Source: Nymphaea colorata
Taxonomy: Eukaryota; Streptophyta; Magnoliopsida; Nymphaeales; Nymphaeaceae
NCBI RefSeq assembly: GCF_008831285.2
Contig: NC_045148.1
Location: forward strand, 8,253,001 to 8,317,000
Direction: 5' to 3'
DNA length: 64,000 nucleotides
Every line of letters begins with the position of its first letter. The first letter of the stretch is position 1. Positions 26,361 through 47,470 of this stretch are shown one piece after another. A model generated the notes under the pieces. It did not search any database. It saw only the letters and a list, made by a program, of their open reading frames with translations, and was not told where the DNA came from. A program made the position numbers and the translations under genes.

Positions 26361-28125
26361 TACCTATATTTGCTTCTTTTGCTAGGATTTAACCTTAATT
26401 ATTGTGAATCTATAGTTACCATATGAAGTTGGTGCTTTTGTTATAAAATGCTAACTTGGAGTTCTTCTTTGTACAATACAACTGTCCCATCTACTCATTG
26501 TATAGAATCAAGAAATTGTTCAGAATGTCATGAAGGAGTAATTTTTTGCTATGTTGTTCTTTTGTTTCTCGTTTCCTTTTCTAACTGTAATTTTCTTGAA
26601 GTTTGATATTGTTGTTTCCTGAGTTTTTTTAGGCAAGCTTCCTTTTGTCTTTTCAATATAAGCTAAATCATTTGCGATAATCCAAAAAACTTCATAAACT
26701 AGTTTTTGACTATATATAAAATTACATTTAAATGATTGTGTCCATTTTTTTATCTGAGCATGTCTATTCATTGCAAGTGGATCTATTTCTCCTTATGCAA
26801 TTGCAGTGTCTTCTTGTTTAAATGACATAAGGAAGCCACTCTCCAGTAAATGTTTACAGAAGGCATAGCACTATAGTATGTCCCTGTCAGGGTCAATTTT
26901 TGTTATTTATATCTCTAGTTGCTTTTAGATTACTTAATATATTTGCCTGGAGAATTGATCTTGGGTGGAGTTGAATTTTGCTTCTGTTTTGGATACAAAA
27001 TTAATACAGCTAAAGTATTTATTAACATAGGCTGAGAATATGTCAAAATCGTTCACAACTTCCATTTACTTCAACTGTATGCGTGTGAAAGACGCATAAT
27101 GTTGTCAAAAAACTGACTTGTTCTAATACATATAAAATGGCATGATATGTCAGAAAGCCTGAATTTTTTAAAAGGCCTATTATTTATTTTAACAGGTATT
27201 TTATTCACATAGACAACATTCAATTGTTTTCATTGTATAAGACAATTGCCTCCATGAAGGACCTTTGGATTCTGACAAGGGATTCAAAAATAAGGACCAC
27301 TTTAAAATGGGGTCATTAAGAGATTCAATATATGATCTTTCTTTTAATTTTCCTTTGCCAACACAAGGCATAACCCAAGTTTCAGGAAATCTTTCAACAT
27401 AAAAAAGAAAAGAAAAGAATGGCAACTTGCATACAATCCGGAAAAATTGAGGTGGAAAGTCATGTTCCTATTGACGAACATGACTACTGGGCCACATCTG
27501 GCTAAATACCGACAAAGTGCCCGATCATGGCGGAAGAGTGCAGTTTCTCTGACCAGCCCTCGACTTACACTTTGGGGACAGAGCTCAACCACCAGCAATG
27601 TGATCAAAGTGCCTCTGGTGGACCTCGAAGCTGAACGTTCTGCTATCGACTGGTTGAGACAAGATCAAGTGGATAGAGAGGAGGATGACCATAGCTAGTG
27701 GGATCCCCATGGTGCCCTCTAATTCCTTCCCATTGGCTATGATCCTCCTCCTCTCAATCATCTTGATCTTGTCTCGACCAATCGATAGCAGAGCATTCCG
27801 CTTTGAGGTCTACCATGGGTGCTCTGATCACATCTGCTACCAATTGAGCTATATCTCCATCGAGGATTATTAGGATTTGCGCAGCACTGACAACTAAGCT
27901 GCACTTTCCCACCATGATCGTAAAACTGGTTATGTGTACAACCCTGTGCATTCACGGGAGTGTGTAATGATTCTAGTCAGTATCTAGTTAGATATGGCCC
28001 ACTAGTCATATTCATCATTGGGAACATGTCTCTCCACCTCAATTTTTTTGGGATTGTACTCCACTTTTTGCCCTACTTTCCCTTTTTTTTTTGTTTTGGG
28101 AGAGATTTCTTGATACTAGAGTTTG
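26361..28125 (+). repeat. Dispersed repeat family, copy A
   Basis: Starts with CCTATATTTGCTTCTTTTGC and contains the degraded exon-like block (CTATAGTTACCATATGAAG), then the shared segments GACATAAGGAAGCC, TAGTATGTCC and GAAGGACCTTTGGATTCT. It ends with the long inverted repeat and the tail TTTCTTGATACTAGAG. It is followed directly by copy B, so A and B are a head-to-tail pair. Confidence 0.85.
27445..28044. repeat. Long inverted repeat (hairpin) A, 600 bp
   Basis: Outer ends AATTGAGGTGG (27445) and CCACCTCAATT (to 28044) are inverted. Inward, ATGTTCCTATTGA pairs with TCATTGGGAACAT, GGGCCACATCTGGCTAAATAC with the complement near 27990, and GTTGAGACAAGATCAAG with its complement near 27770. 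The loop-proximal part of the left arm is deleted near 27700 compared with B and C. Confidence 0.85.
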
Positions 28126-28130
28126 TCACT

Positions 28131-29820
28131 TCTTCTCACTGTATGGTATCAAGAAATTGTTAGAATGTCTGAAAGCAGTATTTTTTTTGCTATGTTGTGC
28201 TTTCGTTTCTCGTTTCTTTTTCTATCCATGATTTGCTTGAAGTTTTGTTTCTTGAGTTTTTTTTAGGCAAGCTTCCTTTTGTCTTTTCAATATAAGCTAA
28301 ATCATTTTTTATGATAAAAAAAACTTCATAAACTAGTTTTTAATTATATATAAAATTACATGTAAATGATTGTGTCCATTTTTTTATTTGAGAATCTATA
28401 TTCATTGCAAATGGATCCATTTCTCCTTATGCAATTGCAATGTCTTCTTGTTTAAATGACATAAGGAAGCCCCTCTCCAGTAAATGTTTACCGAAGCTAT
28501 AGCACAATAGTATGTCCATGTCAGGGCCAATTTTTTTATTTATATCTTTGTTTGCTTCTAGCTTATTTAATATGTATGCTTGACGAATTGATCATGGGTA
28601 GAGCTGAATTTTGCTTCTGTTTTGGACACAAAATTAGTACAGCTCAAATATTTATTAAGATATGCGTAGTATAGGTCAAAATCGTCCACAACTTTCATTT
28701 AGTTCAAGTGCATACGAGTCAAAGACGCATAATGTTGTCAAAAAGCTTACTTCCTGGTTCTCGTACATATAAAATGGCCTGATATGTCAGAAAACCTGAA
28801 TTTTTTAAAGTCCTATTTTTTTTTTAAGAGGTATTTTTAATTCACGTAGACAACATTCAATTGTTTTCATTCTATGAGACGATTGCCTTCATGAAGGACC
28901 TTTGGATTCTAACAAGGGATTAAAAAATAAGGACCATTTTAAAATGGGCTCGTTAAGATATTCATTATGTGATCTTTCTTTTAATTTTCTTTTGCCAGCA
29001 CAAAACAAAACCCTAATTTCAAGAAATCTCTAACATAAAAAAAAGAAAAGAAAAGAAAAGAATGGCAACTTCCATATAATCTCGAAAAATTGAGGTGGAA
29101 AGTCATGTTTCTATTGACGAACATGACGACTACTGGGCCACATCTGGCTAAATACCGACAAAGCGCCTGATCATGGTGGAAGAGTGCAGTTGCTCTGACC
29201 AGCCCTCGACTAACACTTTGGCAACAGAGCTCAACCACCAGCAATGTAATCGAAGTGTATATGGTGGACCTCGAAGCAGAACGCTCTGCTATCGACTGGT
29301 TGAGACAAGATCAAGTGGATCGAGATGAGGATGACCATAGCCAGTGGGTGGGAGTCAGAGGGCACCATCAGGAGAACTTTGATCCCCATGGTGCCCTCTA
29401 ACTCCTTACCATTGGCTATGGTCCCCGTCCTCTCGATCATCTTGATCTTGTCTCAACCAATCGATAGCAGAGCGTTCCGCTTCGAGGTCTACTGTGGGTA
29501 CTCTGATCACATCTGCTACCAGTTGAGCTCTATCTCCATCGAGGATTAATAGGATCTGGGCAGCGTTGGCTACTAAGCTGCACTCTCCCACCATGATCGC
29601 AAAACTGGTTATATGTACATCCAGGTGCATGCGCGGGGGTGTGTAATGATTCTGATCAGTATCTAGCCAGATATGGCCCGCTAGTCATATTCATCAATGG
29701 TAACATGTCTCTCCACCTCAATTCTTTGGGATTGTATGCACTTTTTATCTTACTTTTCCTTTTTTTTTTTGAGATATTTCTTGATACTAGAGTTTTGTCT
29801 TGTGTCTATGTTTTAAGTTT
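28131..29820 (+). repeat. Dispersed repeat family, copy B
   Basis: Begins with CTTCTTCTCACTGTATGG (compare 40622 in copy C) immediately after the tail of copy A. It then follows the same order of blocks as A and C up to the hairpin and the TTTCTTGATACTAGAG tail. Confidence 0.85.
29088..29723. repeat. Long inverted repeat (hairpin) B, 636 bp
   Basis: Arms meet at GGCACCAT (29361-29368) and ATGGTGCC (29388-29395), leaving a 19-base loop. The outer ends are AATTGAGGTGG and CCACCTCAATT. The inner roughly 90 bp of each arm are nearly perfectly complementary. Confidence 0.9.
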
Positions 29821-29869
29821 GCACTTCATGACGATAGTCGGGATATGGATGTTGAATCGAAGCTGGTTA

Positions 29870-31047
29870 GTTCAACTTTTGCTCTGTCTTACCTTGAGTG
29901 AAGTTGTGAATTGGTTGTTTTTGCAACACTGGGTGCATTAGTTCTTGTTACACTCATATCCAACTCAGCTTGCTTTCATTGTAAAAGAATTGGTAGAAGC
30001 CACACAACTATTGCTAATGGAAACATCAGTAAAGGCATATCGAAAATCCCCCCATTGGAACTTATCAGTAACGTTTTTCCACAGGGCATCAGCGAATATG
30101 CTACTTTTCATTTGTCTTCAGTACCTTTTTTTTTTTAACGCCACTAATGGTCTTCAATCTTTAATGTCTTTTTTTCTAAAAACATCAGTTAAAATCTCAT
30201 CTTTCTTTGTTTTTAAAACATCAATAAAGGTGATGGCCTTCAGTGATGCAGCCATAAATATCAGTAAAAGTTTCAATATTTTGATTTCCTTTTTTTTTTA
30301 ATTTTAGAAATCTAACCACTAGTGACAAGATATTTCATGGCAATAAAGGTTATTTAATTTTTAAATTCCCCTCATCCTTCTTTTCCCACCCATAGTTAGA
30401 TTTTTAATAATGTGAAAACATCGGTATCTTTCTCTAGCGGCGTTATAGAATAGATGTACCTCATATTCATACTTTGTTTTCCTTGTTTCCTCTTTCCTAC
30501 CTATTCTTTCTCGCTCTCTCTTTATGTATATTATATGCCTATTTTCCTTGATCCTCTTTCCTACCTACTCTCTCTCTCTCTCCTTTTTTTAATGCTCGTA
30601 CTCATTTCGGATTATATTGCAGAAAAGGCACGTCAATTACCACTTCAATTTCAATTATGGATGCTAAAATCTGTCGTGAGTTTCCTTTTTATCTTTCTAA
30701 TTACTGTTTTTTTCTCATTTTTCTTATTCTTAGTAATTTCATTTAGTATTTTTTTTGTTTTTTCGTTTCTTTTTTGCCTAAGCTTTCAGCCAAGAGGCTG
30801 AAGATCTAGAACCCGCTCTATTGACAAGAATAATTACGTGGGACTTTTTTTGTCAGTAGTTCAATAGACTTATAAAGGTGAATTGCTTTTAGTAACACAT
30901 TTGTCCATGTCAATAAAAAAAGTATTCTCGTTCTTAATGAAAGGATTATCAGTAAAATGTTACCACTTTAATGACAAGATCATCATACCTCATAAACGAA
31001 ATAAACATAAAATGTCAACATCGATTTTCAGTGACATTTTTTTAGTG
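29870..31047. mobile_element. CACTA-like subterminal region and right terminus (candidate)
   Basis: Short motifs of the type ATCAGTAAA, TCAGTGAC, GTCAATAAA and TAGTGACA recur many times in 30.0-31.05 kb, as in the subterminal repeats of En/Spm (CACTA) transposons. The block ends TCAGTGACATTTTTTTAGTG at 31047; read inwards this is CACTAAAAAAATGTCACTG, a CACTA-type terminus. LINE-related sequence begins right after it. A matching block follows copy D (43.5-44.9 kb). The left CACTA end was not found. Confidence 0.4.
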
Positions 31048-31620
31048 ACATCAACTTTTTCTTCTTGCTACCCGGCTTTCTTTGGTTCTTTCACTGCGCT
31101 GTTCCCACTCCGGTCTATTTGGTTCTCTGACCCGTCTCCTTGTGCCATTGCTTTTGGTTGGCTTCTTGTTGCTGGTCACATCAATACATTTAACCACCTA
31201 CAGCGTCTTGGCATTAATTTAGCTAACCAGTGTTCCATCTGTCTCGCCACAGCTAAGTCTTTGGTTTACCTTTTTATCTAATGTCATTTTTTTTATAGTG
31301 TTCTTGCCTCTGCATAGTCTTACTTTGTTCGTAACCTTTCAGGCCTACCCTCCAATTGCCTTCTTTTCTTCTGTTGTCTTTTCTTCCACCTACCCTTTTT
31401 TTGGGGTCGTATCTGGAGGTTGTGGCTTATATCCTCTTGGTGACACATTTTGGAGGAGCGCAATAACAAGGTCCTCAGGGGCACATTCTCATCGCCGGAT
31501 TCTGTGGCACGCTTTGTGCATGGGGATGTCCACTTTGTTATTTGGCTACGGTACCGTCTTTTGTTTGCTGAGTAACTCTGCCGTTCCATTTATCCACTCT
31601 CTCCACACATCTCTTGTTTT
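31048..31620 (+). pseudogene. LINE (non-LTR retrotransposon) 3' fragment, zf-RVT region
   Basis: The plus strand encodes PCAIAFGWLLVAGHINTFN, then LQRLGINLANQCSICLA. This matches the zinc-binding zf-RVT segment near the end of plant LINE reverse transcriptases (F.W....RI.T.D.LQ..G....N.C..C). In another frame further right, HILEERNNKVLRG corresponds to the I(W).ERNNR.F motif that follows it. Stops and a frameshift separate them, so it is a dead fragment of the element's 3' end. Confidence 0.65.
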
Positions 31621-31774
31621 ACTTTATTGTGTTATTGTTTTGTATATTTCATTATTCTATTTTGTTTTTAGGTTTGTTTTTGTATCTAAGGAACTTCTTG
31701 TCCCAAATCTTGTTATTGCATTCTCATTTTATCAGCTCTCTCTCTCTCTCTCTCACAGGCCTCTAGATGTTTAG

Positions 31775-32180
31775 AAATTGATGGTGAGAATATTCTCACA
31801 AATTGTTGTGCTAGTATTCCTTTCATGTTCCTCATAAAAGCTATGAGAGAAAAAAACAAAAAAATAATTAAAAACCTAAGGATTAAGCTTAATTTTTACA
31901 CTTTAAACAGTAGAACCAAACTCAGACAATTCCAGTCCAAGTAACCAATCTAGTCGTCAAGTCGTCCAAGTTTTGGTGCTGACTCGTGGCACAATGAGAG
32001 GGCGATCCCAACATGACCTAAATCACCCTAGCAAGGGAGAAGATAGTGATCTAGTTGAGGATCAAAACAAAGAAATTAAGTACCAATGTTAATCTTAATA
32101 CTAAAGATGAGGAGGTAAAAATATGTAAATCTCCTAAAATCATTGAGAGCTATATGAAATGTAGTGGTGAGTTTTCATAA
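31775..32180. other. No gene seen
   Basis: AT-rich spacer without recognisable coding, RNA or element ends. Confidence 0.5.
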
Positions 32181-32195
32181 AAGCAGCCACCCACA

Positions 32196-32960
32196 CCATG
32201 TTATCAAAATTCGTTTTTAATCGAATCAAAAGGCAAAGTAAATCAGTCAATCAGTGAATCGAATCAGATTCAGAATCATTTGTGAATCCAATTTGATTAA
32301 AGATGTATTTTAAATTTTAAAATTAAATTCGAGTTAAACAATTAAAAATTCAATCAAAAACAGGAAGAAAATTTTTAAAAGTAACACAACACAATAAACA
32401 TAATTTAATGGAGATTTTGCACCTACTAGCAACATTTTTTTAGAACTAGTTGTTATTTAAGGTTCAATATAGTAAATTATTTTATTAAAAAAAAAGTTGA
32501 TGGACTTTTGGCAAAGCATTGGTCATCCTTTCATGCTAGATCGAATTGTGTGCACAGAACATGTATGCACCAAGGGGGTGGAGGGTATAATAATGGGTAT
32601 TTCAGATTTTTTAACTTTTTTCACAATCATTTTTCCTTTTAAAAAGTTCTTTTTTATTTTAATGGGTGTATTTTAGTCACTGCATACCATGTGCACAATT
32701 TTTTCATGCATAGGGGTGTGCACATTGCCCACTTTCCTAAGTGCATGTGACATAAACTGGAGTGACATGTACAAGATGATCTTAAAAGAAGTGAGAATCG
32801 GGCAAATATTCAAAGCACCACCCGGTTTTCACCGGAATCCTACCTAATAGCCCCATGTTTTATGGGCATTGAATCGGCCTTCGAGTCAAATCGGTAAAGG
32901 GCTGATTCGATTCGAATCGACTGACTCAGACTGATTCCCACAAATTTACTAACACTGCTA
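32196..32960. mobile_element. Candidate hAT-type MITE
   Basis: The left end CATGTTATCAAAATTCG and the right end read inwards CAGTGTTAGTAAATTTG are similar inverted termini of the CA(N)TGTTA type. The subterminal DNA on both sides is rich in GAATCGAATC / GATTCGATTC. The 8-bp flanks do not clearly match, so the limits are tentative. Confidence 0.4.
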
Positions 32961-32974
32961 TCACCTTGTTGAGG

Positions 32975-33057
32975 AGTAACCAAAGCGAGAAAGAAAACTT
33001 GGAGTCGTGGACGTAGACTCTTGGGGTCAAACCGCATAATTTGTGTTGTGTTCTTCT
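32975..33057 (+). mobile_element. LTR fragment of the outer (older) copia element
   Basis: Contains GTCGTGGACGTAGACTC and GGTCAAACCGCATAA, copia LTR-type words also found in the LTR at 24.7-25.0 kb. It stops at the insertion point of the inner copia (33058) and resumes at 38344 (TTGTATTCTC...), followed by a degenerate primer-binding site TGGTACCA. The inner element thus sits inside this LTR. Confidence 0.6.
33053..33057. repeat. Target-site duplication CTTCT (left)
   Basis: CTTCT directly before the left LTR, identical to 38339-38343 directly after the right LTR. A 5-bp duplication is what copia integrase makes. Confidence 0.85.
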
Positions 33058-33424
33058 TGTTAAAAATCAAATTGAAGAAATAATTAAAGGAACATGAATT
33101 TTTTAAGTGGTTCAGCCAATGGGCCTACATCCACTGCTCTATCATTTTTTATTTGTCTTCTTTTGGTGGAGAGGCTCATTTATATAGAGGAGCTACATAA
33201 GGGGTCTCTAGTTCCCAAAAGACATGACCTTTCATCTTTCAATATACATGACTTTTCATCTTCCAACAGACATGACTTTTTGTCTCTCAAGAGACATGTC
33301 TTTTCATCTCCTAAGAGACATGACTTTTCATCTCCAAACAGACATGACTTTTCATCCCTCAAGAGACATGACTTTTCATCCCCGAAGTAATTCACTTTGA
33401 GAGTTTTTGGTATTTCTGTTAACA
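33058..33424 (-). repeat. 3' LTR of the copia element (367 bp)
   Basis: On the minus strand it starts TGTTAACAG and ends TTTTAACA. It differs from the 5' LTR by many substitutions and by one fewer 24-bp unit of the internal minisatellite. Confidence 0.93.
33221..33388. repeat. 24-bp minisatellite inside the 3' LTR, 7 units
   Basis: Seven consecutive 24-base units of the type GACATGACTTTTCATCTCYC plus four bases, ending exactly at AATTCACTTT. Arg-His-Asp-Phe-Ser-Ser repeats read here are artefacts of the repeat. Confidence 0.93.
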
Positions 33425-33437
33425 TCTTCCCACAAGC
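33425..33437 (-). other. Polypurine tract
   Basis: The minus strand reads TTGTGGGAAGA directly before the 3' LTR, the expected primer site for plus-strand DNA synthesis. Confidence 0.7.
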
Positions 33438-33580
33438 TCAATGCTCCAACAATGAGATTGAGCTTGTTAATTATTTGATAATGGTGCTGCTTACTAAGTG
33501 GCTTAGTTAAAATATCAGCAACCTGATCTTTGGAAGAGATGTATTGACTTTTCAAATCTCCTTTAGCCAATTTTTCTCGA

Positions 33581-34252
33581 ACAAAATGAAGGTCAATCTC
33601 TATGTGTTTGCTGCGGCTATGATACATAGGATGAGCTGCAAGATAGGCTGCGCCGATGTTGTCGCACCATAATATGGGAGGTTGTGATTGAACAATACAA
33701 AGTTCTTTTAATAAAAATTGTAACCACATGATTTCAACAGTAGTATTGGCAATAGATCGATACTCAGCCTCAGTGCTAGAACAAGGGACAACTGGCTGCT
33801 TTTTAGCATTCTATGAAATTAGATTGGATCCAATAAACATTGCATATCCACATGTAAACCATCTATCATCAAGACATTTTGCCCAATCTGCATCACTGTA
33901 AGCATTAATATTAAGAACAAAATGAAGGTCAATCTCCATGTGTTTGCTGCGGTTATGATACACAGAATGAGCTGCAAGATAGGCTGCACCGATGTTGTCG
34001 CACCATAATATGGGAGGTTGTGATTGAACAACACAAAGTTCTTTTAATAAAAATTGTAACCACATGATTTCAGTAGTAGTATTGGCAATAGATCGATACT
34101 CAGCCTCAGTGCTAGAATGAGGGACAACTGGCTGCTTTTTAGCATTCTATGAAATTAGATTGGATCCAATAAACACTACATATCCACATATAAACCGTCT
34201 ATCATCAAGACATTTTGCCCAATCTGCATCACTGTAAACATTAATATTAAGA
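33581..34252 (-). repeat. In-frame 336-bp tandem duplication in the RNase H region
   Basis: Bases 33581-33916 and 33917-34252 are two consecutive copies (both begin ACAAAATGAAGGTCAATCTC or its diverged form and end TTAATATTAAGA). The unit is 112 codons and contains [12 protein letters not shown] at one side and [15 protein letters not shown] at the other. The copies differ by several substitutions. Confidence 0.92.
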
Positions 34253-35163
34253 ACTAAATTAGGTCTAATAACAAAACCATAATCAATAGTGTGTTTCAAA
34301 TATCTTATGATTCTCTTTACGGCTTTCCAATGGGCATCAGTAGGATGATGCATGTATTGACAAACCTTGTTGACAACATAAGAGATGTCTGAACGAGTCA
34401 TAGTAGAGTATTAAAAAGCACCAACAATGTTGGATAAAAAGTTGGATCATAAAAATTTGATCTAGTTTGAGCAGATAAAGCAGAGGAGCATGCCATGGGA
34501 GTTGAAACTCTCTTAGCTCCAAGCATATTTGTTCTTTTGAGAAACTCGAATATGTATTTTCTTTGAGACAATCTTAGCTTATCGTCAATTCTTTTTGCTT
34601 CTATGCCCAAAAAGAAATGAAGTTCACACAGATCTTTAATGACAAACTCACTTTTGAATTGATAAAAAAAAATTTAATATATTCAGGGGAGTTTGCTGTT
34701 ATAATCATGTCATCCACGTATACCAAAACATATAGAAGTAATTCTTTTTTTCTTAAAATAAAAAGAGATGAATTTGTTTGAGCCCCTTTAAAACCAAGAT
34801 TTTGGAGGAATAGACTAAGACGGGCAAACCTTGCCCTAGGAGCCAATTTTAAACCATATAAAGCACGTTCAAGCTTGCATACATGATTTGAGAAAGAATG
34901 ATTTTGAAATCCAGGTGGTTGAACCATATAAACTTCTTCTGAAATAGATCCATATAAGAATATATTTGGAATATCCAGCTGACGTATTTTTCATTTGAGA
35001 CTAATAGAAATAGTCTCAATACTGTCTGAATTGTAGTAGGCTTCACAACAGGACTGAAGGTTTCAGTATAGTCAATTCCTTCTTTTTTACTATACCCATT
35101 GGCAACGAGTCTAGCCTTGTATTTTTTCAATGATCCATCTGCCTTTCGCTTGATTTTGAACAC

Positions 35164-35766
35164 TCATTTACATCCTACAATGTGTTTGGTTTCTTTCTTT
35201 GGAACAAGTTTCCAAGTATTGTTTCGAATAAAAACATCATATTCGTCTTGCATGGTCTTCCTCCAATTTTCATCTTCATATGCTTCCTTGAAACTTAAGG
35301 GTTCTTTGTCTTCAAGAAGAGTGAAGACAAGAGCTTTTGGAGGAGAGTGTTTGCTAGAAAAATATGTATTGAACTCATTGTATTTAGGATTAGGTTTGAA
35401 GGTTTCCACTTGAGATCTAGTAGTCATAGGAAGGACTCGTTCTTGATTTGGTTCATTTACATTGGATTGGGTTGGCTCCTCATTTTCAAGAGTTTTAGGT
35501 TGAGATTCATTATTTATCTCAGACTGAAGTAAGGGTTCCCCTGATGCTGGGGAGGTACTAGATAGTGGTATTGTAGGATTTGAGAACAGATATTCATGAG
35601 AGGAGGTTAAAATGATAGCTTGGTTTTGACTTTCTAGATCTTGAGTTTTAGTCTCTTTAGTATCAATAAAAGGAAATTTTTTCTCATTAAATTGGACATG
35701 CCTCGAAATATAGATTTTACCTACACCCAAAAAATAATATCTTTTATGTTGAGGAGCATAACCCAA
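35164..35766 (-). pseudogene. Copia integrase C-terminal / linker region
   Basis: A 200-residue frame beginning GYAPQHKRYYFLGVGKIYIS, the conserved segment between integrase and reverse transcriptase in copia (the GY...KGY..... motif followed by SRHVQFNE). A variable Ser/Pro/Glu-rich linker follows, then the start of RT (EPLSFKEAYEDENWRKTMQD). This is the longest undamaged stretch of the polyprotein. Confidence 0.88.
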
Positions 35767-35874
35767 GAAAACACATCTTTCAAATCGGTAATCTAATTTA
35801 ATTTTCTGATAAGCTCCTAAACAAGAAAAACATTCACATCCAAAGATTTTGAGGAAATCATAATCAAGTTTTTC

Positions 35875-36466
35875 TTAGAACAATTTTTTCAAAAGAGAAG
35901 CAAAATCAAGAACCTTGGTTGGCATTTGGTTAATTAAATAAACAGCAGTACAAAAAACATACGACCAAAAGTCCTTGGGAATATTACCTTCTGCCATCAG
36001 AGATAAACCTGTTTCAACAATATGTTTATGTCTCCTTTCAGCTGCTTCATTTTGTTCAGGGATATGAGGACATGATATTCTATGTCTAATTCCATTATCG
36101 ACAAAATTGATTGAAGCCCTTGAAATTCTCCTCCTCAATCTGAGTGAAAATATTTTATCTTGTGTCCAATGAGATTTTCAAAAAGTACCTTGAAAGCTTT
36201 AAAAACATGACTAACGTTTGATTTTTTTTCATCAAATAAATCCAAGTATATCTTAGAAAGGCATCCATAAAAATCACATAGTACTTAAAACCATTCACAC
36301 TCTCCACTAGAACTGGACCCCATACATCAGAATAAATGAGTTCAAGCGGGCGTTTCACCTTATTTGAAATAGCATTAAATGGAAGTTTATGACTCTTACC
36401 TTTTTGACAAGCTTCACACAAATAATTCAAACAATCATCATAATAAGACAAATCACACATGTTCAA
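35875..36466 (-). pseudogene. Copia integrase core
   Basis: Frames 36155-36466 and 35875-36138. The first has CEACQKGKSHKLPF (end of the zinc-binding HHCC domain), then LIYSDVWGP and YYVIFMDAF with the two catalytic aspartates. The second has SCPHIPEQNEAAERRHKHI, where the third catalytic acid lies. A frameshift near 36145 separates them. Integrase inserted the cDNA into the genome. Confidence 0.88.
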
Positions 36467-36628
36467 AACCTTCTTAACAATAGAAAATGAAGGGCGACCA
36501 AGTCTTTTGTGCCACTGCCCAATAGTCTGTCGTTCTCCAAGTTGCGCATCTTTTTTTCTACTACTAAGGTCTATTTTATATAGCCCATCACTACTAGTTC
36601 CTTGATGAAGAATTTTTCTCGTTCCCTG

Positions 36629-36991
36629 CTACTTAACATAGCACATATTATGATGAAACTCAAAATAGACTTCATTATCCTTAGAAAAATGTTGTACGGA
36701 TAACAAGTTTCTTGTTATTTTGGGCACATGAAAGAGATCATTTATAACTAAATTTTGAGATGTCTTTGAAGAACCAATATAAAAAAATCTCAAACCTGAT
36801 CCATCTCTGATTGTTACTGCATCTCCACCTTTGTATTTGGCATGAATGGACAAGTTATTGATATTATTGGTGATGTGATGAGTCACACTGGAGTCAAGAT
36901 ACCAATTGTCATCTCCAATGTCTTGATTCAAAGCGCTAGAAGAAATTGCATGATATGCTTGGGGAGGCGTTGTCTCTTTTTCTTTAAGCAA
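36629..36991 (-). pseudogene. Copia aspartic protease / GAG-pre-integrase
   Basis: Contains DDNWYLDSSVTHHITNN, the copia protease active-site region. The canonical Asp-Ser-Gly is Asp-Ser-Ser here, so the catalytic loop is altered. It is followed by NLVINDLFHVPKITRNLLSV, the typical hydrophobic second half. Confidence 0.88.
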
Positions 36992-37814
36992 GTTAGTATA
37001 TGACCAACAAAACTTTGCAATATGACCAACTTTTCCACATATTTAGCACACAAGACGATCAGCTTTGTATTGCTCACTTTTTTGGACTCCTCCTCTAGAT
37101 TAGTAGTTGTTTCTACCACGACCTCTGTAGTTGGTTTGCTTATTGTAAATTTGTTTTGACGCAATATTCGCAGTCGGCATAATAGATTCAAAAGTTTGAG
37201 AATCATCTTCTTTTAAGTTGGCTTCTTGTATGAGAAGAAGCCCATGAAGTTCATTCAAAGAGACAGGGTCCTTTTGAGTTTCCATACTGACTTTAAAATC
37301 AAGATATTCACTTGGCAATCCTCTAAGAATTTGAAGAACAAGATCATCTTCATGAACGGGTTTAGATGCAATGGCTAATTGATGAGCAACAGCTTTTACT
37401 TTGTTTATATAAGCATCCATAAAACTAGACCCTTTTTTCAAATCTTGAAATTATGATTTTAACTGCATTATTCGAGCCCTGGATTGAGCAGCATATAACT
37501 GCCTAAGAGCACTCTAAACCTCTAGAGAGGTTTTTAAACCAATAATTTGGGTATGTATTGCTTCAAATAGAGAAGATTTAATCTAACTGATTCTTTTTCA
37601 GCCATTCAATATATTCTGAACTAATTTCAGTTGATCCACATCTAAACATTGACGGAGTAGGTTTGCTTCCATCAATATATCTCATAAGATCAAATGAGAT
37701 CAAATTTGAAGTGAATTGAGATTCCCAAATAAGATAATTTTTAGCGTTTAACTTGATGGTGAGGAAATGTTGTAAATTGCTTGGGTACTGAAGAGGAGAA
37801 GCAAGAAAATTCAT
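36928..37814 (-). pseudogene. Copia Gag
   Basis: Starts at the ATG 37814 with MNFLASPLQYPSN, then LNAKNYLIWESQF and MRYIDGSKPTPS. After stops, 37100-37441 carries SSFMDAYINKVKAVAHQLA and LQILRGLPSEYLDFK (UBN2-type Gag core) and a basic end with RGRGRNN. The zinc knuckle (C-x2-C-x3-GH-x4-C) is recognisable near 37010-37060 (VGHI) but is split by a frameshift. Gag would form the virus-like particle. Confidence 0.88.
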
Positions 37815-37927
37815 ACATGTATCAAAGTTGACTCCCGTATTTGATTATGCTTTTTGATTTGCCATGAGAATGAAAAGTGACAACACAAGATGTAATCCTT
37901 ATGATCTAGCAGCAGCACAAACAAGGA

Positions 37928-37945: not shown

Positions 37946-38338
37946 TGTTAAAAGTCAAAATGAAGAAATAATTAAAGGGACATAAATTTTTAAAGTGGTT
38001 CAGCCAATGAGCCTACATCTACTGCTCTATCATTTTTTGCTTGCCTTCTTTTGGTGGGGAGGCTCATTTATATAGAGGAGTTACATAAGGGGTCTTTAGT
38101 TTCTAAGAGACATGTCTTTTCATCTTTCAACATACATGACTTTTCATCTTTGAACAGACATGATTTTTCGTCTCTCAAGAGACATGTCTTTCCATCTCCT
38201 AAGAGACATGACTTTTCATCTCTCAACAGATATGACTTTTCATCCCTCAAGAGACATGACTTTTCATCCCTCAAGTGACATGACTTTTCATCTCCCAAGT
38301 AATTCACTTTGAGAGCCTTTTTGGTATTTCTGTTAACA
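37946..38338 (-). repeat. 5' LTR of the copia element (393 bp)
   Basis: Same borders as the 3' LTR (TGTTAACAG ... TTTTAACA on the minus strand). It is 26 bp longer, of which 24 bp is one extra minisatellite unit. Confidence 0.93.
38109..38300. repeat. 24-bp minisatellite inside the 5' LTR, 8 units
   Basis: Eight units of 24 bases of the type GACATGACTTTTCATCTCYC plus four bases, against seven in the other LTR. Confidence 0.93.
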
Positions 38339-38343
38339 CTTCT
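38339..38343. repeat. Target-site duplication CTTCT (right)
   Basis: Perfect match to 33053-33057. Confidence 0.85.
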
Positions 38344-39290
38344 TCTTTGTATTCTCTATTTTTATGGTACCAAAGGTCCAAGGCGACACTGTTCTGATGA
38401 CTCTCAATGCAAAGGCTGATAGGGTCACCAACTATGGCAGGAGTAGTGAATTTGAAAACATATTCAGTCATGAAAGCAGAAGCAATCTTACCACATCTAC
38501 AGATCAGGTATTCCCGGTTTTGCCAGATCCCACAAATCTTCAATATTTTCTTGCCGTTAAACGAGATAGAGAAAATTTTCCTTTGTGGGATCTCAATTTA
38601 TGCCACTACTCAATATGAAGATCAAGAATCCAGCATATGATTAATGGGTATGCATGGATCAACTCTCCTTGAGTTGGATCTTCTCCTCCCTTGTGGAAAA
38701 CATGCATCATTAGGTGGTAAGATTGAATATGTCGCATGTAGTATGGTTTTCGTTAAAGAAAGAGGTACTGGTAAGATTGAATATGTCGCATGTAGTATGG
38801 TTTTCGTTAAAGAAAGAGGTACTCTGCCTGATCTAGGGTAAGAAATACAACAAATGAGGGGACAACTTGAAAACTTGTGTGAGGGAACCAGATCCAAAAA
38901 TGCATATTTTTGTAAGGCCAACAACACACCAACTTGCTTTGACATCAAAACCCTATTGATGAAGATCGCTTGCTTTCCTTTATACTAGTGATCTTCCACC
39001 AGAGGACAAATGATCTTTCACGAGAGGATGAAGCATATCGAAGTAGACTGCCACTTTGAGAGAAGATTCAGAATCGGGATATAGACACAGTTCATGTTAA
39101 CGACACAACTCAGCTTGTGGACATTTTCACAAAGCCAATTAGCAGAGGTCAATTTAACGAGATCATTAACTAGTTAGGAATCTCAAATACGAGATTACTA
39201 ACTTGAGAGAGTGTGTTACAGGAACTGAGTAGAGCTTTATAGATTACAGCCAGCTGGTCTCACCTGTAACAAGTTAACTACCTATCCAAT
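38344..39290 (+). mobile_element. Outer copia element, internally deleted remnant
   Basis: After the rest of the LTR (38344-38365) comes TGGTACCA (degenerate primer-binding site). Next is a gag start reading LQYFLAVKRDRENFPLWDLN (about 38535-38600). The coding middle is missing: by 39060-39170 the frame reads TVHVNDTTQLVDIFTKPISR, the last motif of copia RNase H/pol. It is followed by a purine-rich TTGAGAGAGTG and TGTTACAGG, the likely start of the 3' LTR. It has the opposite orientation to the inner element. Confidence 0.65.
38716..38823 (+). repeat. Perfect 54-bp tandem duplication
   Basis: 38716-38769 is repeated base for base at 38770-38823 (GGTAAGATTGAATATGTCGC...). The unit is 18 codons and reads GKIEYVACSMVFVKERGT in each copy. 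It lies in the remnant of the outer copia. Confidence 0.97.
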
Positions 39291-40224
39291 TGTACATCTG
39301 AAATGTAACAGAGAAAAATGACCAAAATGAAACAAGTGACCAGGAAATAGAGTACTTCTGCTCCTCTCTTCATGACCAGTGAAAGGAAAAAAGGGATGTT
39401 TGTCGTTACTGATTTATGATCAGTAGCGGCATATTCTTCCTGCTTGGATGAACAACTAAAAGGGAAAAATATGAGAACAAGATCAAGGAAAAAAAATGCA
39501 TTAAGTGAAAGAGGAAAAAGGAAATGACTTTCTATCAATCGTTTTAGGCCAGGTTACCTGCACATTCCTGCAAAACCATAGAAATGAAAACCAGACCGAG
39601 GGTTGGGGAAAAATTACAGGAGAGAAATAGCAAGATGAAAGAAAATGAGATGCAATAGCTTTGAAGAAAAAGTAAAATGAAACAGAGAAGGATTATCCAT
39701 GGGCATTGCCCAACTTTGTTGTAGTCAATTTGTTTCCTTCCAGCTCAATTTCGATTCATGTTAATGCTTTTTACTCTGTTGACTATAGCACCAAGAAATT
39801 TTGTGCCTCAAAAAATGATATGATGACATTTTAAATCCAAGGCCTATAGAAGCAATCGCATTTGTCGTGACTTTGGAACTGAGAGGAATTAGTTGCATTG
39901 AAGAGAATACATGCACCATAATATTAGTTCCTTACCATCATTTGTGCCTGCTAGATATAGCATATCTTTGGATACCACAACAACACAAGTATGAGGCTTA
40001 GAACCTGGGGCAGTATAGAAAGGGAAAATATTCTTGATGGATCCAACCCACTCATTTAAACTACTTAATAAATAAATAGTAAAAAGAAACAAAAATTTTA
40101 AAACTGATGTTAAAAAATAAGATCCAACTCACTCCTAATGTTAGCATGTGGGTCAAATCAAAACCTGTGGGTCAAATTAGTAGGCCCAAGTCAGTTCTAT
40201 TACAGGACACCCCTGATGGGTTTG
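39291..40224. other. No gene seen
   Basis: Outer-copia 3' LTR remnant may extend into the first part. Otherwise AT-rich DNA without a supported feature. Confidence 0.45.
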
Positions 40225-42440
40225 ATGCCCAGCCTGAATTCCAATCCCTTTAGGTATAAAAGCAATTGCTATGTAAAATGAGTTGTGACACTAGATTTTG
40301 TAACATTTAGAAATCTAGCCAATCAATAGCAGAAAGCATCCTATTCATTTCTTCAGTAGGCAATAAAGATAAATAGGGAAATAAATTAATCTCCTTCCAA
40401 GTGTCATAAATTTCCTAAAATGCACTTTTTTTGGCATAAAATATGAAAATAAATTATCGTATAAAAGGCAATTTTCCTACCAAGTAGGTTTTCATACCTA
40501 TAATTGCTTCTTTTGCTACGATTTCATTTTAATTTTTTCGACCTATAGTTACCATATAAAGTTGGTGCTTTTGTTATAAAATGTAACCTAAAGTTCTTCT
40601 CTGTGCAATACAACTGTCCCTTCTTCTTACTGTACTGCACCAAGAAATTGTTCAGAATGTCACGAAGCAGTAATTTTTTTACTGTGTAGTGCTTTCGTTT
40701 CTGGTTTCTTTTTTTATCTATAATTTGCTTGAAGTTTTGTTTCATGAGTTTTTTTAGGCAAACTTCCTTTTGTCTTTTCAATATAAGCTAAATCATTTTT
40801 TATAATAAAAAAAACTTCATAGACTAGTCTTTAATTATATATAAAATTACATGTAAATGATTGTTTCCATTTTTTTTATTTGGGAATCTCTATTCATTGC
40901 AAATGGATCCATTTCTCCTTATGGAATTCCAATGTCTTCTTGTTTAAATGACATAAGGAAACCCCTCTCGGGTAAATGTTTACCGAAGCGATAGCACTGT
41001 AGTATGTCCATGTCAGGGTCAATTTTTGTTATTTATATCTTTATTTGCTTCTAGGTTATTTAATATGTTTGCTTGACGAATTGATCATGGATAGAGTTGA
41101 ATTTTTCTTCTGTTTTGGACGCAAAATTAGTACAGCTCAAGTATTTATTAAGATATGCTTAGTATAGATCAAAATCGTTCACAACTTTCATTTATTTCAA
41201 ATGTATATGTGTGAAAGACACGTAATTTTGTCAAAAAGCTGACTTGCTGGTTCTCGTACATATAAAATGGGATGATATGTCGGAATACCTCAATTCTTTA
41301 AAGGCCTTTTATTTATTTTAACAGGTATTTTTCATTCACATGGACAACATTCAATTGTTTTCATTTCATTAGACAATTGCCTCCATGAAGGACCTTTGGA
41401 TTTTAAATTTTAACAATTTGTCTGACCTGAATCAATGACTTTCATTGTCATCAATGAAAATGAAATTCATTCATCAAACCTTGATTCCTTACAAAAGTAA
41501 GGACCACTTTAAAATGGGGTCATTAAGAGATTCAATATATGATCTTTCTTTTAATTTTCCTTTGTCAACACAAGACATAACCCTAGTTTAAGGAAATCTT
41601 TCAACATAAAAAAGAAAAGAAAAGAATGGCAACTTGCATACAATCCCAAAAAATTGAGGTGGAAAGTCATGTTCCTATTGAAGAACATTACTACTGGGCC
41701 ACATCTGGCTAAATACCGACAAAGCGCCCGATCATGGCAGAAGAGTGCAGTTGCTCTAACCAGCCCTCGACTAACACTTTGGTGGCAGAGCTCAACCACC
41801 AGCAATGTGATCAAAGTGCCTATGGTGGACCTCGAAGTTGAACGTTCTGCTATCGACTGGTTGAGACAAGATCAAGTGGATCGAGAGGAGGATGACATAG
41901 CCAATGGGAGGGAGTTAGAGGGCACCATCAGGAGACCTTTGATCGCCATGGTGCCCTCTAACTCCCTCCCATTGGCTATGAACCTTCTCCTCTCGATCAT
42001 CTTGATCTTGTTTCAACCAATTGATAGCAGAGCGTTCTGCTTCGAGGACTACCATGGGTACTCTGATCACATCTGCTATCAATTGGGCTCTATCTTCATC
42101 GAGGATTAATAGGAGCAGGGCTGCACTAACTACCGCACTGCACTCTCCCACCATGATCGTGAAACTGGTTATATGCATACCCTGTGCATGCACGAGGATG
42201 TGTAATGATTCTGGTCAGTATCTAGCCAGATATGGCCCGCTAGTCATATTCATCAATGGGAACATGTCTCTCCACCTCAATTCTTTGGCATTGTACCCAC
42301 TTTTTGCCTTACTTTTCCATTTTTTGGTTTTCTGTTTTCTTTTCTTTTTGAGATATTTCTTGATACTGGAGTTTTGTCTTATATGTATGTTTGAAGTCCC
42401 TTCATGAGGATAGTCGGAATATGAATGTTGAACCGAAGCT
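40225..42440 (+). repeat. Dispersed repeat family, copy C (longest)
   Basis: The most complete copy: GATGCCC start shared with 14844, GGCAATAAAGAT, the exon-like block near 40547, all middle blocks, a small insertion at about 41400-41490 absent from copies A and B, the intact hairpin (41652-42282) and the TTTCTTGATACT tail. Confidence 0.85.
41652..42282. repeat. Long inverted repeat (hairpin) C, 631 bp
   Basis: Best-preserved hairpin. Outer ends AATTGAGGTGG / CCACCTCAATT; inner stem GGCACCAT (41921-41928) and ATGGTGCC (41948-41955) around a 19-base loop. The inner stem includes GCCAATGGGAGGGAGTTAGA and its complement, almost without mismatch. Overlapping frames on the two strands (41654-42109 and 41551-41814 among them) are palindromic shadows. 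Confidence 0.92.
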
Positions 42441-42544
42441 GGTTATGTGCAATGTCTTCAGTGATGGCCTTCAGTGATGCAGAAAGGAAAAGAAAAGTTT
42501 ATCAGTAAAAGTCCCATGATTATCAGTAAAAGTTTCAATATTTT

Positions 42545-43480
42545 GATTTTCCTTTTTAATTATATACAAAATTACATGTAAATGATTGTGTCCATTTTTT
42601 TATTTGAGAATCTCCATTCTTTGCAAATGGATCCATTTCTTCTTATGCAAGTGCAATGTCTTCTTGTTTAAATGACATAAGGAAGCCACTCTCGAGTAAA
42701 TGTTTACCGAAGGGATAGCACTATAGTATGTCCATGTCTGGGTCAATTTTTTTTTATTTATATCTTTAGGTTATGTAATATATTTGCTTGACGAATTGAT
42801 CATGGATAGAGTTGAATTTTGCTTCTGTTTTTGGACGCAAAATTAGTACAGCTCAAATATTTTTTAAGATATGCTTAGTATAGTTCAAAATCGTTCACAA
42901 CTTTCATTTATTTCAATTGTATATGTGTGAAAGACCTATAATTTTTTCAAAAAGCTGACTTGCTGGCTCTCGACGTCTCTTACATATAAAATGGCATGAT
43001 ATGTCGGAATACCTCATTTCTTTAAAGGCCTTTTAATTTTTTTTAACAGGTATTTTTCATTCACATAGACAACATTCAATTGTTTTCATTTCATAAGACA
43101 ATTGCCTCCATGAAGGACCTTTGGATTCTGACAAGGGATATAAAAAATAAGGACCATTTTAAAATCGGCTCGTTAAGATATTCATTATGTGATCTTTCTT
43201 TTTATTTCTTTTGCCAGCACAAGACAAAACCCTAGTTTCAGGAAATCTCTCAACATATAAAAGAAAAGAAAAAGAATGGCAACTTGCATACAATCCCAAA
43301 AAATTGAGGTGGAAAGTCAATGTTCCTATTGACGAACATGACTACTGGGCCACATCTGGTTAAATACCCACAAAGTGCCCGATCATGGCGGAAGAGTGCA
43401 GTTTCTCTGACCAGCCCTCGACTAACACATTGGGGTGTGTAATGATTCTGGTCAGTATCCAGCCACATATGGCCCACAGG
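42545..43480 (+). repeat. Dispersed repeat family, copy D with collapsed hairpin
   Basis: Begins mid-unit (TATACAAAATTACATGTAAA) after a junction in CAGTAAAAGT-rich DNA. It runs through the same blocks to AATTGAGGTGG (43302). The left arm continues to about 43430, then jumps to the right-arm sequence GTGTGTAATGATTCTGGTCA; the rest of both arms is deleted. Confidence 0.8.
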
Positions 43481-43554
43481 TGCACCAGCTGCTTTCCTCT
43501 AAGTTTGTTGTTAGTGCTTGTCTGAAATATTTCATTTCATTTCCCTTTTGTCTG

Positions 43555-44762
43555 TCTTACCTGGAGTAAAGTTGTGAATTGGTTGTTTTGCAACACTGGG
43601 TGCATTAGTTCTTATTACAGTTACGCACATCTCAACTTGCTTTCATTCTAAAAGAATTGGTAGAAGCCACACAACTATCAGTAAATGCATATCAAAAATC
43701 CCCCCATTGAAAGTTTTCAGTGACGTTTTTCCACAGGACATCAGTGAACATGTTACTTTTGGTTTGGTTTGTCTTTAAGATTTTTTCTTTTTTGTGAAAC
43801 GGAAGGAAAGGAAAGAGAGTTATAACGTAAATTTAGTCTCTCCAAAATTAGGGGGATTAGAATTAGGGGGATTAGAAAGGAAAAGAAAAGTTTATTCATT
43901 TTTACTCACTCATATAAGAGATATCAATTGATGTTGCCTGGCTCTTTCTCTTCTTTCCCGCCTGTGGTCAAGACTTCGATAGATGCATGATATGTCTTTC
44001 TCTCTTTTCGGGCCACTCGGGATTTGTCTTTCTCTCCCTTTTCGCCATTGCTCGAGAGTTGGATGGCATTTTACATCTGCTCCTTTGCCAAAATCAAGTT
44101 TTTGTCATTTTTATGTCATCCAATTAGTATACTTGAAAATAGTGTTTTGTTTGATTGATATAAATTTTTATCATATTTATTACTATAAAATGAAATGCCG
44201 ACTGGAAGTATAGGTTTTTTTTTATTGAATCAAAAAATCAAATTAAAAATATTTTTATTTGAATGATAAATTTTTTAATGTTAAAGGTATTATTGTAAAG
44301 TATTATAAATTTTATCTTTTTCTTTTTGTCATATAATCAAAAAACAAATATGATTTTAACAATTTCTTTCTTTCTATCCATCATCATTTTTTTTTCTTTT
44401 TCCGCTATCCAAACAAAACCACTTTAACTTTTAGTGTAATTTTTTCTAAAAATATCAATTACAATCTCATCTTTCTTTGTTTTTAGTGATGTTTCTTTGG
44501 AAAACATCAATAAAGGCGATACCCTTCAGCTATGCAGCACATAAATATGAGTAAAAGTTTCAATATTTTGATTTTTTTTTATTTTAAAAATCTAATCACT
44601 AGTGACACAGCATTTCACGTCAATGAAGTTACTTTTCAAAAATTTCTCTCTTCCTTCTTGTCCGACCCATATTTAAACTTTTAATAATGTGAAAACATGG
44701 GTGTCATTCTCTAACGGTCTTATAGAATAGAAGCACCTCATATTCCTATTTTATTTTTCTTG

Positions 44763-44839
<77 letters not shown>

Positions 44840-45000
44840 TCTTGTTGATGCTCGTACTCTAAACTATGTCGTGAGTTTCTCTTAATTTTTTTAATTACTT
44901 TTTTCTCATTTTTCCTGCTCTTAGTAACTTTTTTTTTGTAATTTTATTTATTTTTTTTATACCGGTGATTATTCTCACCCTTATAGGTCTGTCGCATTAA
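43555..45000. mobile_element. CACTA-like subterminal block, second copy, with an insertion
   Basis: 43555-43760 and 44430-44880 match 29880-30120 and 30130-30660 respectively (CTGTCTTACC, GTTGTGAATTGGTTGTTT, TTGGTAGAAGCCACACAAC, then ATCTCATCTTTCTTTG and GTTTCAATATTTTGATT). The 43790-44425 part has no counterpart and contains a direct duplication of TTAGGGGGATTAGAA; it ends CTATCCAAACAAAACCAC, a possible terminal-inverted-repeat insertion. Confidence 0.5.
44768..44836. repeat. Compound (TC)n(TA)n microsatellite
   Basis: About 16 TC units followed by about 18 TA units. Confidence 0.95.
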
Positions 45001-45779
45001 AAATTATAAGTCCATTGCTTTTCGTCAATAGAGAATATTTGTAATTTGATGAAAGCATTACATCAGCTCCCCCTTCTCCCCTCCGCACAGGTCGGCTCTT
45101 CCTCTTCTCCCTTCCGAGAATTTCTTTCAACCCTCCAGCTATTTGCGGCGCTCGGTTTTTGGGCGTGCTGATGTAGTTTTTGTTGCTGTGAAAGCGTGCT
45201 GGTTTGAATGAGGTTTTGATTTGAATGTGTATTGCTTTAGATTGTTAACCCCTGACGATATGTTAGTGTTCTGGGTAGGCGCGTGCCCTCAGTTTATTAA
45301 AATATGCTTAGTATATATCAAAAACATTAACAGCTTTCATTTGTTTCAATTGTATATGCAAATAAAGATACATAATGTGGTAAAAAAACTTCTTATTCTT
45401 GTACATTTAAAATGGCATATGTCAGAAAACCTGATTTTTTTAAAGACCTATTATTTACTTTAACAAGTATTTTTCATTCCAATAGACATTTATATATTCA
45501 ATTATTTTCATGCTATAAGACAATTGCCTCTCTGAAGGACCTTTGGATTCTCACAAGGGATTCAAAAATAAGGACCATTTTAAAATGGGCTTATTAAAAA
45601 CATTCATTATGTGATCTTTCTTTTAGTCTTCCTTTGCAGGCCTAATTATAAATCGGCTACATAAAATGTTGAAAAGCAGAACAGGTGCACTCGGCATAGT
45701 GCAAAACAACCAATTCATGCAAGGCAGAGCAAAAGGGAAAGGGAATATGCCGGAAAAGCAGTAACAGCAGATATGGAGT

Positions 45780-45795
45780 GAAAGGAATTGATCCT
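45780..45795. repeat. SINE target-site duplication (left)
   Basis: GAAAGGAATTGATCCT, identical to 46034-46049. Confidence 0.9.
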
Positions 45796-46033
45796 GCCTC
45801 AAGGGGCATAGCGTAGCTGGTCGAGCTAGGGGCCTGTATTAAGGCAGGTTTCTAGTTTGATTTCCGTTGGCGCTATGTTTCTGTGTCTTAAGACGGTAGG
45901 GCGCGGCACCCAAGCTGAAGGGTGCACCGTTGCTATCGCTGACACCGACGCAGCTCAGGACCCCGAAGGCAGGGGGAATGGGAGGGCCTTCGGGCCTTTT
46001 TCGGACGGTGGGTTTAATACCCCTTACTCACCC
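45796..46033 (+). mobile_element. tRNA-derived SINE (238 bp)
   Basis: Flanked by a perfect 16-bp direct repeat. The 5' part resembles a tRNA gene with an A-box-like TAGCTGGTCGAGC (about 45815) and a B-box-like AGTTTGATTTCC (about 45853), the internal RNA polymerase III promoter. The 3' part contains an imperfect hairpin GGGCCTTCGGGCC. The tail is pyrimidine-rich (ACCCCTTACTCACCC) rather than poly(A). It is GC-richer than its surroundings. Frames in it are not genes. Confidence 0.85.
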
Positions 46034-46049
46034 GAAAGGAATTGATCCT
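46034..46049. repeat. SINE target-site duplication (right)
   Basis: GAAAGGAATTGATCCT, identical to 45780-45795. Confidence 0.9.
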
Positions 46050-46215
46050 ATTTTCGGACTGATTAAAATCCAGAAAGAAATCTCTCTAACGTACGTAAAC
46101 GTAAAGGTTCTCCTTCCCAGTGAAGTCCAGGTGGGCCTCAAAGCAAATACGTGACGAGACTTGTCTGAGTGGACTTTTATAAAGGATGTAAGACATTTTG
46201 TTTGGGGTTTAAAAA

Positions 46216-46855
46216 AAAAAAAAAAAATCTCCCAAAAATCAAGTGAAGTTTTCTCCTTAAAACCGAGTTCTCTTTTATCTCAACTTACTTTAAAAGCACA
46301 CTCCAACTTTTGATCAGACATTTTTAACTTGCTAAGATTATTGGCGTTAGAAAATAATCTCAGATAAATTTCGCACCAAGTTACCTGATTGCATGAAAAT
46401 TAAAAGGAAACTTTTGCCCTAGGTACTTCAGTCTAAAGAAATATTTTCCTTTGGATAAAATAGACAGGACTTTGCATGACGCAACGAATGCATCCAAATC
46501 CAATACCCAAAGCATTTTCACGGGTCCATCACGCATTTGGGTTCGGTGTAGATTTAACCTAATTGCAACAACCCAAATTCGTAGAAATTCTGTTGCGTCT
46601 TGCAAAGCCCTGTCTATTTTATCCAAAGGAAAATATTTCTTTAGACTGAAGTACCTAGGGCAAAAGTTTCCTTTTAATTTTCATGCTCTCAAGTAACTTG
46701 AAATTTATCTGAGATTAGTTTCTAAGGCGAATAATCTTAACTAGTTAAAAATGTCTGATCAAAAGTTGGAGTGTACTTTTAAAGTAAGTTGAGATAAAAG
46801 AGAACACGGTTTTAACTTTTAAGGAGATTGGAAGGAGAAGGTGAGATTTTTTTTC
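46216..46855. mobile_element. Foldback / Mutator-like MITE (about 640 bp, arms about 250 bp)
   Basis: Nearly the whole interval is one inverted repeat centred near 46530. AAAAATCTCCC...CTCCTTAAAACCGAG at the left pairs with the right end GGTTTTAACTTTTAAGGAG...GAGATTTTTTT. Inside, TTTTATCTCAACTTACTTTA, TTTGATCAGACATTTTTAAC and CCCTAGGTACTTCAGTCTAA all recur inverted. Long terminal inverted repeats without a coding sequence fit a Mutator-like MITE; the homopolymer flanks hide the target duplication. The mirror-image 81-residue frames here are artefacts. Confidence 0.85.
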
Positions 46856-47470
46856 TGCATTTTAATCCACCCGAAAATTTTAGTATGTGCAAGCCACTAA
46901 AACACGGCATAGAAACCTCGCGTATAGTGCAAGCTTCAATCGCCAAGACAAAACAAAACCTAGTTTTAGGAAATCTCTCAAAAAAAAAAAAAGTAGGGCA
47001 TCAAGTGTCTACAGTCTCAAAAAATTGAGGTGAAGAGTCATGTTCCTATTGAAGAACATGACCAGTGGGCCATATCTGGCTAAATACTTAGCAAAACGCA
47101 CCCGATCATGGTGGAAATATTATTTTTTAAAATTTTTATATAGAACAAGTAAAATTTTTTAAATTTATATGTAAATTTTAAAAAAAAAATTAAGGTGGGG
47201 CCAAGGCTCATGCGAGCCCCCCTTGGCTCCAGCCCTGGCTCTATCGCTGAAGTCCTCCTACTAGGCTGCACTCTCGCACAGGTGTTTCCAAGTCAATATC
47301 TAGCCAGATATGGCCTGTTAGTCACATTCATCAATGGGAACATGAGTCTTCACCTCAATTCTTTGGGATTGTATGTACTTTTTGCCCTACTTTCTTTTTT
47401 TTTTTAGAGAGAGGGAGAGAGAGAGATTTCTTGAGACTAGGGTTTTTTCATGTGTTGATGTTTGAAGTTC

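Follow-up and report, generated by a model that had tools for sequence, protein, structure and literature searches.

The question raised by the 64,000-nucleotide window of Nymphaea colorata studied here (contig NC_045148.1; C11:8253001-8317000, forward strand) is how five long hairpins, or the remnants of hairpins, came to stand in one short cluster, and whether anything keeps them there. The initial annotation described these loci, A to E, as a repeat family of their own with a layout that it could assign to no named family. From searches covering the 407.8-Mb assembly, we observed that the layout has a known explanation, namely the inverted duplication of a gene fragment. It is quite likely, in our assessment, that the hairpins descend from an A1-type aspartyl protease gene whose 5' part was duplicated head to head, and that this duplicate, once pseudogenised and joined to a dispersed repeat of about 1 kb, was copied to five local places, where it persists as decaying relics. 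Positions given without a contig or locus name are those of the window.

The hairpin loci and the gene behind their arms

The end sequences of the three full hairpins were found exactly where they had been annotated, with AATTGAGGTGG at 27445, 29088 and 41652 and also at 43302, and CCACCTCAATT at 28034, 29713 and 42272. The 19-base loop of B and C is equally present, lying between tips that read ...ACCAT and ATGGT.... The self-complementary extent of 600-630 bp that was originally proposed holds as an inverted repeat, but self-comparison lengthened it by about 80 bases on each side (A approximately 27361-28124, B 28999-29805, C 41568-42380), and the pairing is incomplete, as Watson-Crick pairs occupy 236 of 318 aligned arm positions in A, 268 of 356 in B and 267 of 357 in C (74-75%). 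On alignment, the left arms of A-C are without two stretches, of about 47 and about 19 bases, that are present in the right arms.

Plus-strand RNA was folded and compared with dinucleotide shuffles, 20 for each of A, B and C and 100 for each of D and E. Hairpins A, B and C reached -378.6 kcal/mol (z -26.1), -418.2 kcal/mol (z -32.9) and -436.0 kcal/mol (z -33.0), respectively, and none of the 20 shuffles equalled any of them, so a transcript of these loci would indeed form the long double-stranded RNA (dsRNA) expected of it, though an imperfect one. The other two loci had both been called collapsed; this is right for D, which folds no better than chance (z 0.08, equalled by 53 of 100 shuffles), but E still folds in part (z -17.4, equalled by 0 of 100). 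The fold-back typical of hairpin RNA (hpRNA) loci and proto-MIRNA genes was observed in A, B, C and E and not in D.

Searching the assembly with hairpin B returned 21 match rows, 18 of them in this cluster and three at C9:24118460-24118768, where one arm stands without a partner; no dispersed paired-arm copies, as a foldback element or a miniature inverted-repeat transposable element (MITE) would leave, were found by this search, which may miss weak matches. The place on C9 is the open exon 1 of a minus-strand gene, whose downstream open reading frames (ORFs) give matches above the curated cut-offs to TAXi_N (E 3e-8 and 3e-11) as well as to Asp (E 9e-5), and one to TAXi_C that falls short of its threshold (E 3e-4). 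Besides exon 1, four more exon pieces were identified, and the locus is presumably a working aspartyl protease gene. Pfam returned no family for any of the five arm-ORF translations, and the origin of the arms was recognised only through this C9 locus.

In tblastn searches with the C9 exons, A, B and C each showed exon 1 in the left and in the right arm (E 5e-19 to 2e-12), the right-arm copies being broken by in-frame stops. Both arms of E matched the end of exon 1, and its right arm also matched exon 2 (47472-47528, E 0.008), while the match in D was weak (E 0.40). Alignment showed that the right arm of B runs from the ATG across exon 1 and intron 1 into the opening bases of exon 2 (L009 3765-3325, the C9 gene), that the right arm of E extends through exon 2, and that the left arm of E carries antisense pieces of exon 2 and intron 2 beyond an insertion. 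The tip of the hairpin lies at the start codon, and consequently two fragments stand head to head, 19 bases apart in B and C. On this comparison the arms derive by inverted duplication from the front portion (exon 1, intron 1 and the start of exon 2) of an aspartyl protease gene of the A1 type. Two copies of a protein-gene segment lie side by side in inverse orientation, and a member of the founder family, the C9 gene, is still in the genome, with arms 67-74% identical to it.

The individual arms, antisense on the minus strand at left and sense on the plus strand at right, are distributed as follows. In A, the left arm (27361-27703, 69-72% identical to the C9 gene, with exon 1 on the minus strand by tblastn) carries antisense exon 1 and the start of intron 1, and the right arm (27704-28124; alignment, tblastn, folding) carries sense exon 1 with stops and the start of intron 1, being ended by the next unit. 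The left arm of B (28999-29378) holds antisense exon 1 and intron 1, and its right arm (29379-29849) runs from the ATG through exon 1, where tblastn showed the stops, and intron 1 to the start of exon 2; by alignment, the right arm continues at 29876-29945 (plus strand), which matches 45678-45735 of the left arm of E inversely and is intron 2-like through E. The arms of C occupy 41568-41938 and 41939-42445, the latter with exon 1, stops and intron 1 and aligning with B up to 42445 (self-comparison, alignment, tblastn, folding). Locus D retains a truncated left arm (43215-43435, minus strand), its right arm being mostly deleted and its hairpin gone. The left arm of E reaches farther outward than those of A-D and is interrupted; its outer part (45678-45782, minus strand) is antisense to the end of exon 2 and the start of intron 2 (45782-45645 aligns to L009 3245-3090, with a firm core at 45714-45768 of 83.6% over 55 bp), and its inner part (46868-47117, minus strand) is antisense to exon 2, intron 1 and the end of exon 1 (L009 3551-3269). 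The right arm of E (47258-47536, plus strand) carries the end of exon 1, intron 1 and exon 2 (L009 3569-3285, 69.9%). The interrupting insertion, delimited by self-comparison and alignment at 45783-46867, holds a separate inverted repeat at 46257-46815, palindromic and with arm blocks 94-95% complementary, which has a single genomic place at the sensitivity used and is not an obvious MITE.

Copying of the unit and its genomic setting

Left arms of A-D are 90-95% identical to one another and right arms of A-C 87-89%, whereas left and right arms share 73-77%; against the C9 gene, identity is 67-73% for the arms of A-D and 70-74% for those of E. In a maximum-likelihood tree of 11 rows, built with the arms of A-C and leaving out D and E, the left arms (100/99), the right arms (100/99) and all six arms together (98/96) were each recovered, and the six arms joined the C9 gene at 100/100, apart from related genes on C2. 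Jukes-Cantor distances are 0.30-0.32 between left and right arms and 0.06-0.15 between copies. As the arms are farther from each other than the copies are, the inverted repeat came first and the copying of the unit later; these distances indicate that the inverted repeat formed once and that the whole unit was subsequently copied locally. The proposed course is that the 5' part of the protease gene would have been duplicated head to head, that the duplicate would then have been pseudogenised and joined to the dispersed repeat, and that the whole unit would finally have been copied to its five places.

The same flank precedes the hairpin in every unit, and the flank and other unit pieces are 78-91% identical between loci by self-comparison, which bears out the view that the hairpin holds a fixed place in the unit and spread with it. 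What did not survive is the notion of an independent repeat family, since the genome search, within its sensitivity, shows one cluster and the single C9 arm and no dispersal. Arms occurring separately and in other contexts had been named as evidence that would overturn that notion, and this was found in part, as the C9 arm is single and the flank is widespread without a hairpin. A flank query (26341-27440) gave 37 match rows, 30 of them outside the window, so the flank is a repeat of about 1 kb that exists elsewhere without the hairpin; it has numerous partial genomic copies. By self-comparison and genome search, all on the plus strand, the flank lies at 26341-27360 before A, 28124-28995 before B, 40220-41565 before C, 42553-43214 before D and 45293-45640 before E, those before B, D and E being truncated. 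An older, diverged and hairpin-free copy, 68-70% identical to the unit flanks, stands in the same window (14840-15881, plus strand).

Some further observations concern these repeats. The flank repeat is clustered at L010 and C2:35.588-35.670 Mb, where six minus-strand copies occur together with diverged plus-strand ones; with one of the six as query, the other five are 90-98% identical to it. A short acidic ORF next to the C2 copy had suggested that the flank might be an ARIADNE-like gene's intron, a reading that was dropped. Units A and C are 97% identical directly before the left arm (27285-27439 versus 41492-41646) and 86% farther upstream, a step that suggests gene conversion or recombination between units. 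A second dispersed repeat follows the hairpins at 29876-30800 and 43545-44956, and 29720-30800 gave 54 genomic match rows, 11 of them within the window. As for the background, a long inverted repeat was detected in one of 20 sampled 8-kb stretches (round coordinates, nine contigs); such scans miss some imperfect inverted repeats, and the looser scan, which picks up B as a single match but neither A nor C, undercounts and is a rough guide only.

Probable decay, possible silencing and the rival explanations

If the cluster were read through, the transcript would fold to long dsRNA from which Dicer-like enzymes could cut small interfering RNAs (siRNAs), acting mainly on their own locus and possibly, though weakly, on the C9 protease mRNA. 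Within A-C, over 317 common columns, the arms of the same copy scored 711 for pairing against 710 or 711 for the five other pairings of copies; with G-U pairs allowed, the scores on the two strands were 773 against 772-774 and 792 against 791-792. Columns variable in both arms numbered six, where 6.3 were expected. Compensatory change was thus not seen, as swapping arms among the A-C copies leaves the pairing as good as it is inside each copy. Among the six arms there was also no conserved block of 21, 24 or 42 columns, the best being reached by 0.15-0.26 of 5000 shuffles; for 21 columns the figure was 21%, so that no conserved segment of the MIRNA kind was found. When C9 was added, the outer 21-column block, AATTGAGGTGG..., which is exon 1's coding end, stood out (0.008). 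Neither Rfam at gathering score nor a tRNA scan gave any match in the window. With no pairing advantage and no conserved block, the array behaves like a decaying pseudogene pair; we see no sign of selection keeping the pairing, and the present copies are probably decaying relics rather than hairpins held by selection.

Some points weigh against this conclusion. The pairing test has limited power with three full copies. Changes from Watson-Crick pairs since the split of the copies lean towards plus-strand G-U, in 24 of 35 transitions (24:11), although mis-polarised sites are uncorrected, polarity is the majority of three copies, the consensus arms lean the opposite way (15 plus and 26 minus G-U), and the lean is not relied on. 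Moreover, the longest exact antisense runs to the C9 exon are 28 nt in the left arm of B and 22 nt in that of C, lengths that 0 and 0.9%, respectively, of 2000 column shuffles attain. A strand-specific G-U asymmetry was also considered as a sign of selection and rejected, there being no significant lean in the differences between the arms within A, B, C and E (p 0.22-0.71).

The exact runs lend support to an active trans-silencing locus, in which A-C would be transcribed and diced, left-arm siRNAs would repress the C9 protease and the extra copies would add dose. The very strong folding still retained by A-C speaks in the same direction, as does a second, independent hairpin from the same protease subfamily, described below. 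However, each of the nine arm pieces tested, right arms, D and E included, does better than its shuffles (0 to 4.3%); no target site is therefore singled out by this control, and the long runs arise largely because conservation in the coding exon is clustered. Of the left-arm 21-mers, eight of 360 in B and two of 351 in C are exactly antisense to the C9 piece from exon 1 to exon 2, and none of 323 in A, 201 in D or 158 in E, which amounts to 10 of 1,393 over the five loci; no left-arm 21-mer of the five loci has an exact counterpart in the equivalent stretches of the C2 paralogs. Considering in addition the lack of co-evolution within copies, of a conserved block like that of a microRNA (miRNA) and of an Rfam match, and the decay of D and E, silencing of C9 by siRNAs from the left arms is possible, and the active locus as a whole is unlikely.

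Rather improbable, too, is that the arms began as two head-to-head paralogous genes that lost a shared intergenic region, and not as an inverted duplication at a breakpoint. Both arms do start no more than about 10 bases ahead of the ATG and extend into introns, and inverted neighbouring paralogs exist in the window in the form of wound-induced protein genes, but the arms of B and C are only 19 bases apart, with no promoter-sized spacer, and in the tree left and right arms group as sisters with C9 outside them. A transposable element of the foldback or MITE-like kind, suggested by long inverted repeats in several copies with a dispersed repeat adjoining, is very improbable, because the arms are gene exons and introns, one cluster was found in 408 Mb, and the copies sit in the same unit instead of at new target sites.

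A second hairpin and the known inverted-duplication loci

A second hairpin from this protease subfamily lies on C2. A protein search of the genome with exon 1 gave 18 match rows, four of them on C2: two in genes with downstream exons (L012 and L013) and two in the facing arms of an inverted repeat in L011 (3388-4174 and 5374-4588; C2:32700388-32702374), which has exon 2 in its 413-base spacer. The arms are 787 bp long, with nine substitutions and 32 gap columns of 803 and a perfect helix of 260 bases, and both carry, as read from the sequence, a TATA-like stretch just upstream of the ATG. Among 767 21-mers, 76 and 43 are exactly antisense to the two C2 paralog pieces, which include intron and upstream DNA besides exons. 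A DNA search with one arm yielded 10 rows, consisting of both arms, both paralogs, a partial copy at C2:32754267, C4 fragments and short adjacent pieces. The tree groups the C2 arms with the C2 genes, so this hairpin is independent and recent, and by its sequence it appears a better candidate than the C11 array for an active silencing locus. TAXi_N aspartyl proteases account for at least 150 matches among the candidates scored genome-wide (150 of 368), and a second inverted duplicate is consequently less of a surprise than the small size of the exon 1 subfamily would imply. These proteases form a large genomic expansion, with many on C5, C7, C11 and C13 and some with stops, and a group of them lies at C11:8400565-8463064, about 84-146 kb past the end of the window.

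For young plant MIRNA genes, the inverted-duplication model (Allen et al. 2004, as described in PMC3237417 and PMC5388894) has fragments that may be convergent or divergent (PMC3237417), and MIR163 derives from SABATH methyltransferase genes (PMC5388894). Like such genes, the C11 array has two gene-fragment copies still similar to the founder family, but it is without a conserved miRNA/miRNA* block and has several local copies; its arms end within about 10 bases upstream of the ATG and so exclude the founder promoter, unlike the model. Wheat INHIBITOR of WAX1 (Iw1) is an inverted repeat more than 80% identical to a protein gene, forming a long hairpin like a miRNA precursor, and it makes miRW1, linked to target cleavage (PMC8005961); C11 is likewise a gene-like inverted repeat with a long hairpin, with the lower identity to its C9 relative given above. 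SULF of Antirrhinum and YUP of Mimulus act through siRNAs and thereby shape petal pigment (PMC12371187). In Drosophila, hp-CG4068 and hp-tHMG are tandem hpRNA clusters with demonstrated Dcr-2-dependent siRNAs (PMC10317233), resembling C11 as locally or tandemly amplified long hairpins, with hp-tHMG in a gene-related cluster, though they belong to an animal pathway and C11 is a plant array. In its anatomy the C11 array is of the known inverted-duplication kind, whose defining activity is the production of small RNAs. Judging by titles and abstract openings, no publication about these loci was found.

The remainder of the window contains several other features. A tandem array at 18061-22934 has a period near 174 bp and about 28 units, with open frames of 102 aa every 521 bp, five of them listed. 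Wound-induced protein genes (DUF3774) occur in both orientations at 363-9000 and 50754-51068; the ORF at 2619-2912 matches PF12609 at 8e-23, and the others were judged by similar sequence. A broken Copia-like retrotransposon lies on the minus strand at 33376-37450, with RVT_2, gag_pre-integrs and SH3 in separate frames (three ORFs scanned). The open frame at 59292-59759 matches DUF659 (PF04937, E 2e-19), which we take to be a domain of hAT-like transposases.

A wider proposal, which we consider doubtful, is that one protease subfamily repeatedly spawned hairpin loci from the same exon, an old, amplified, head-to-head one on C11 and a young, facing one on C2 with a TATA-like region at both ends, and that successive hairpins police the expanding family through siRNAs while older ones decay as their targets are lost. 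The C11 array and the C2 locus show one kind of event, inverted duplication of a single exon in a single gene subfamily, at an old and at a young stage within what is apparently an early-diverging flowering plant. The birth and decay proposed for small-RNA genes of plants thereby becomes open to a direct test by ordinary small-RNA sequencing.

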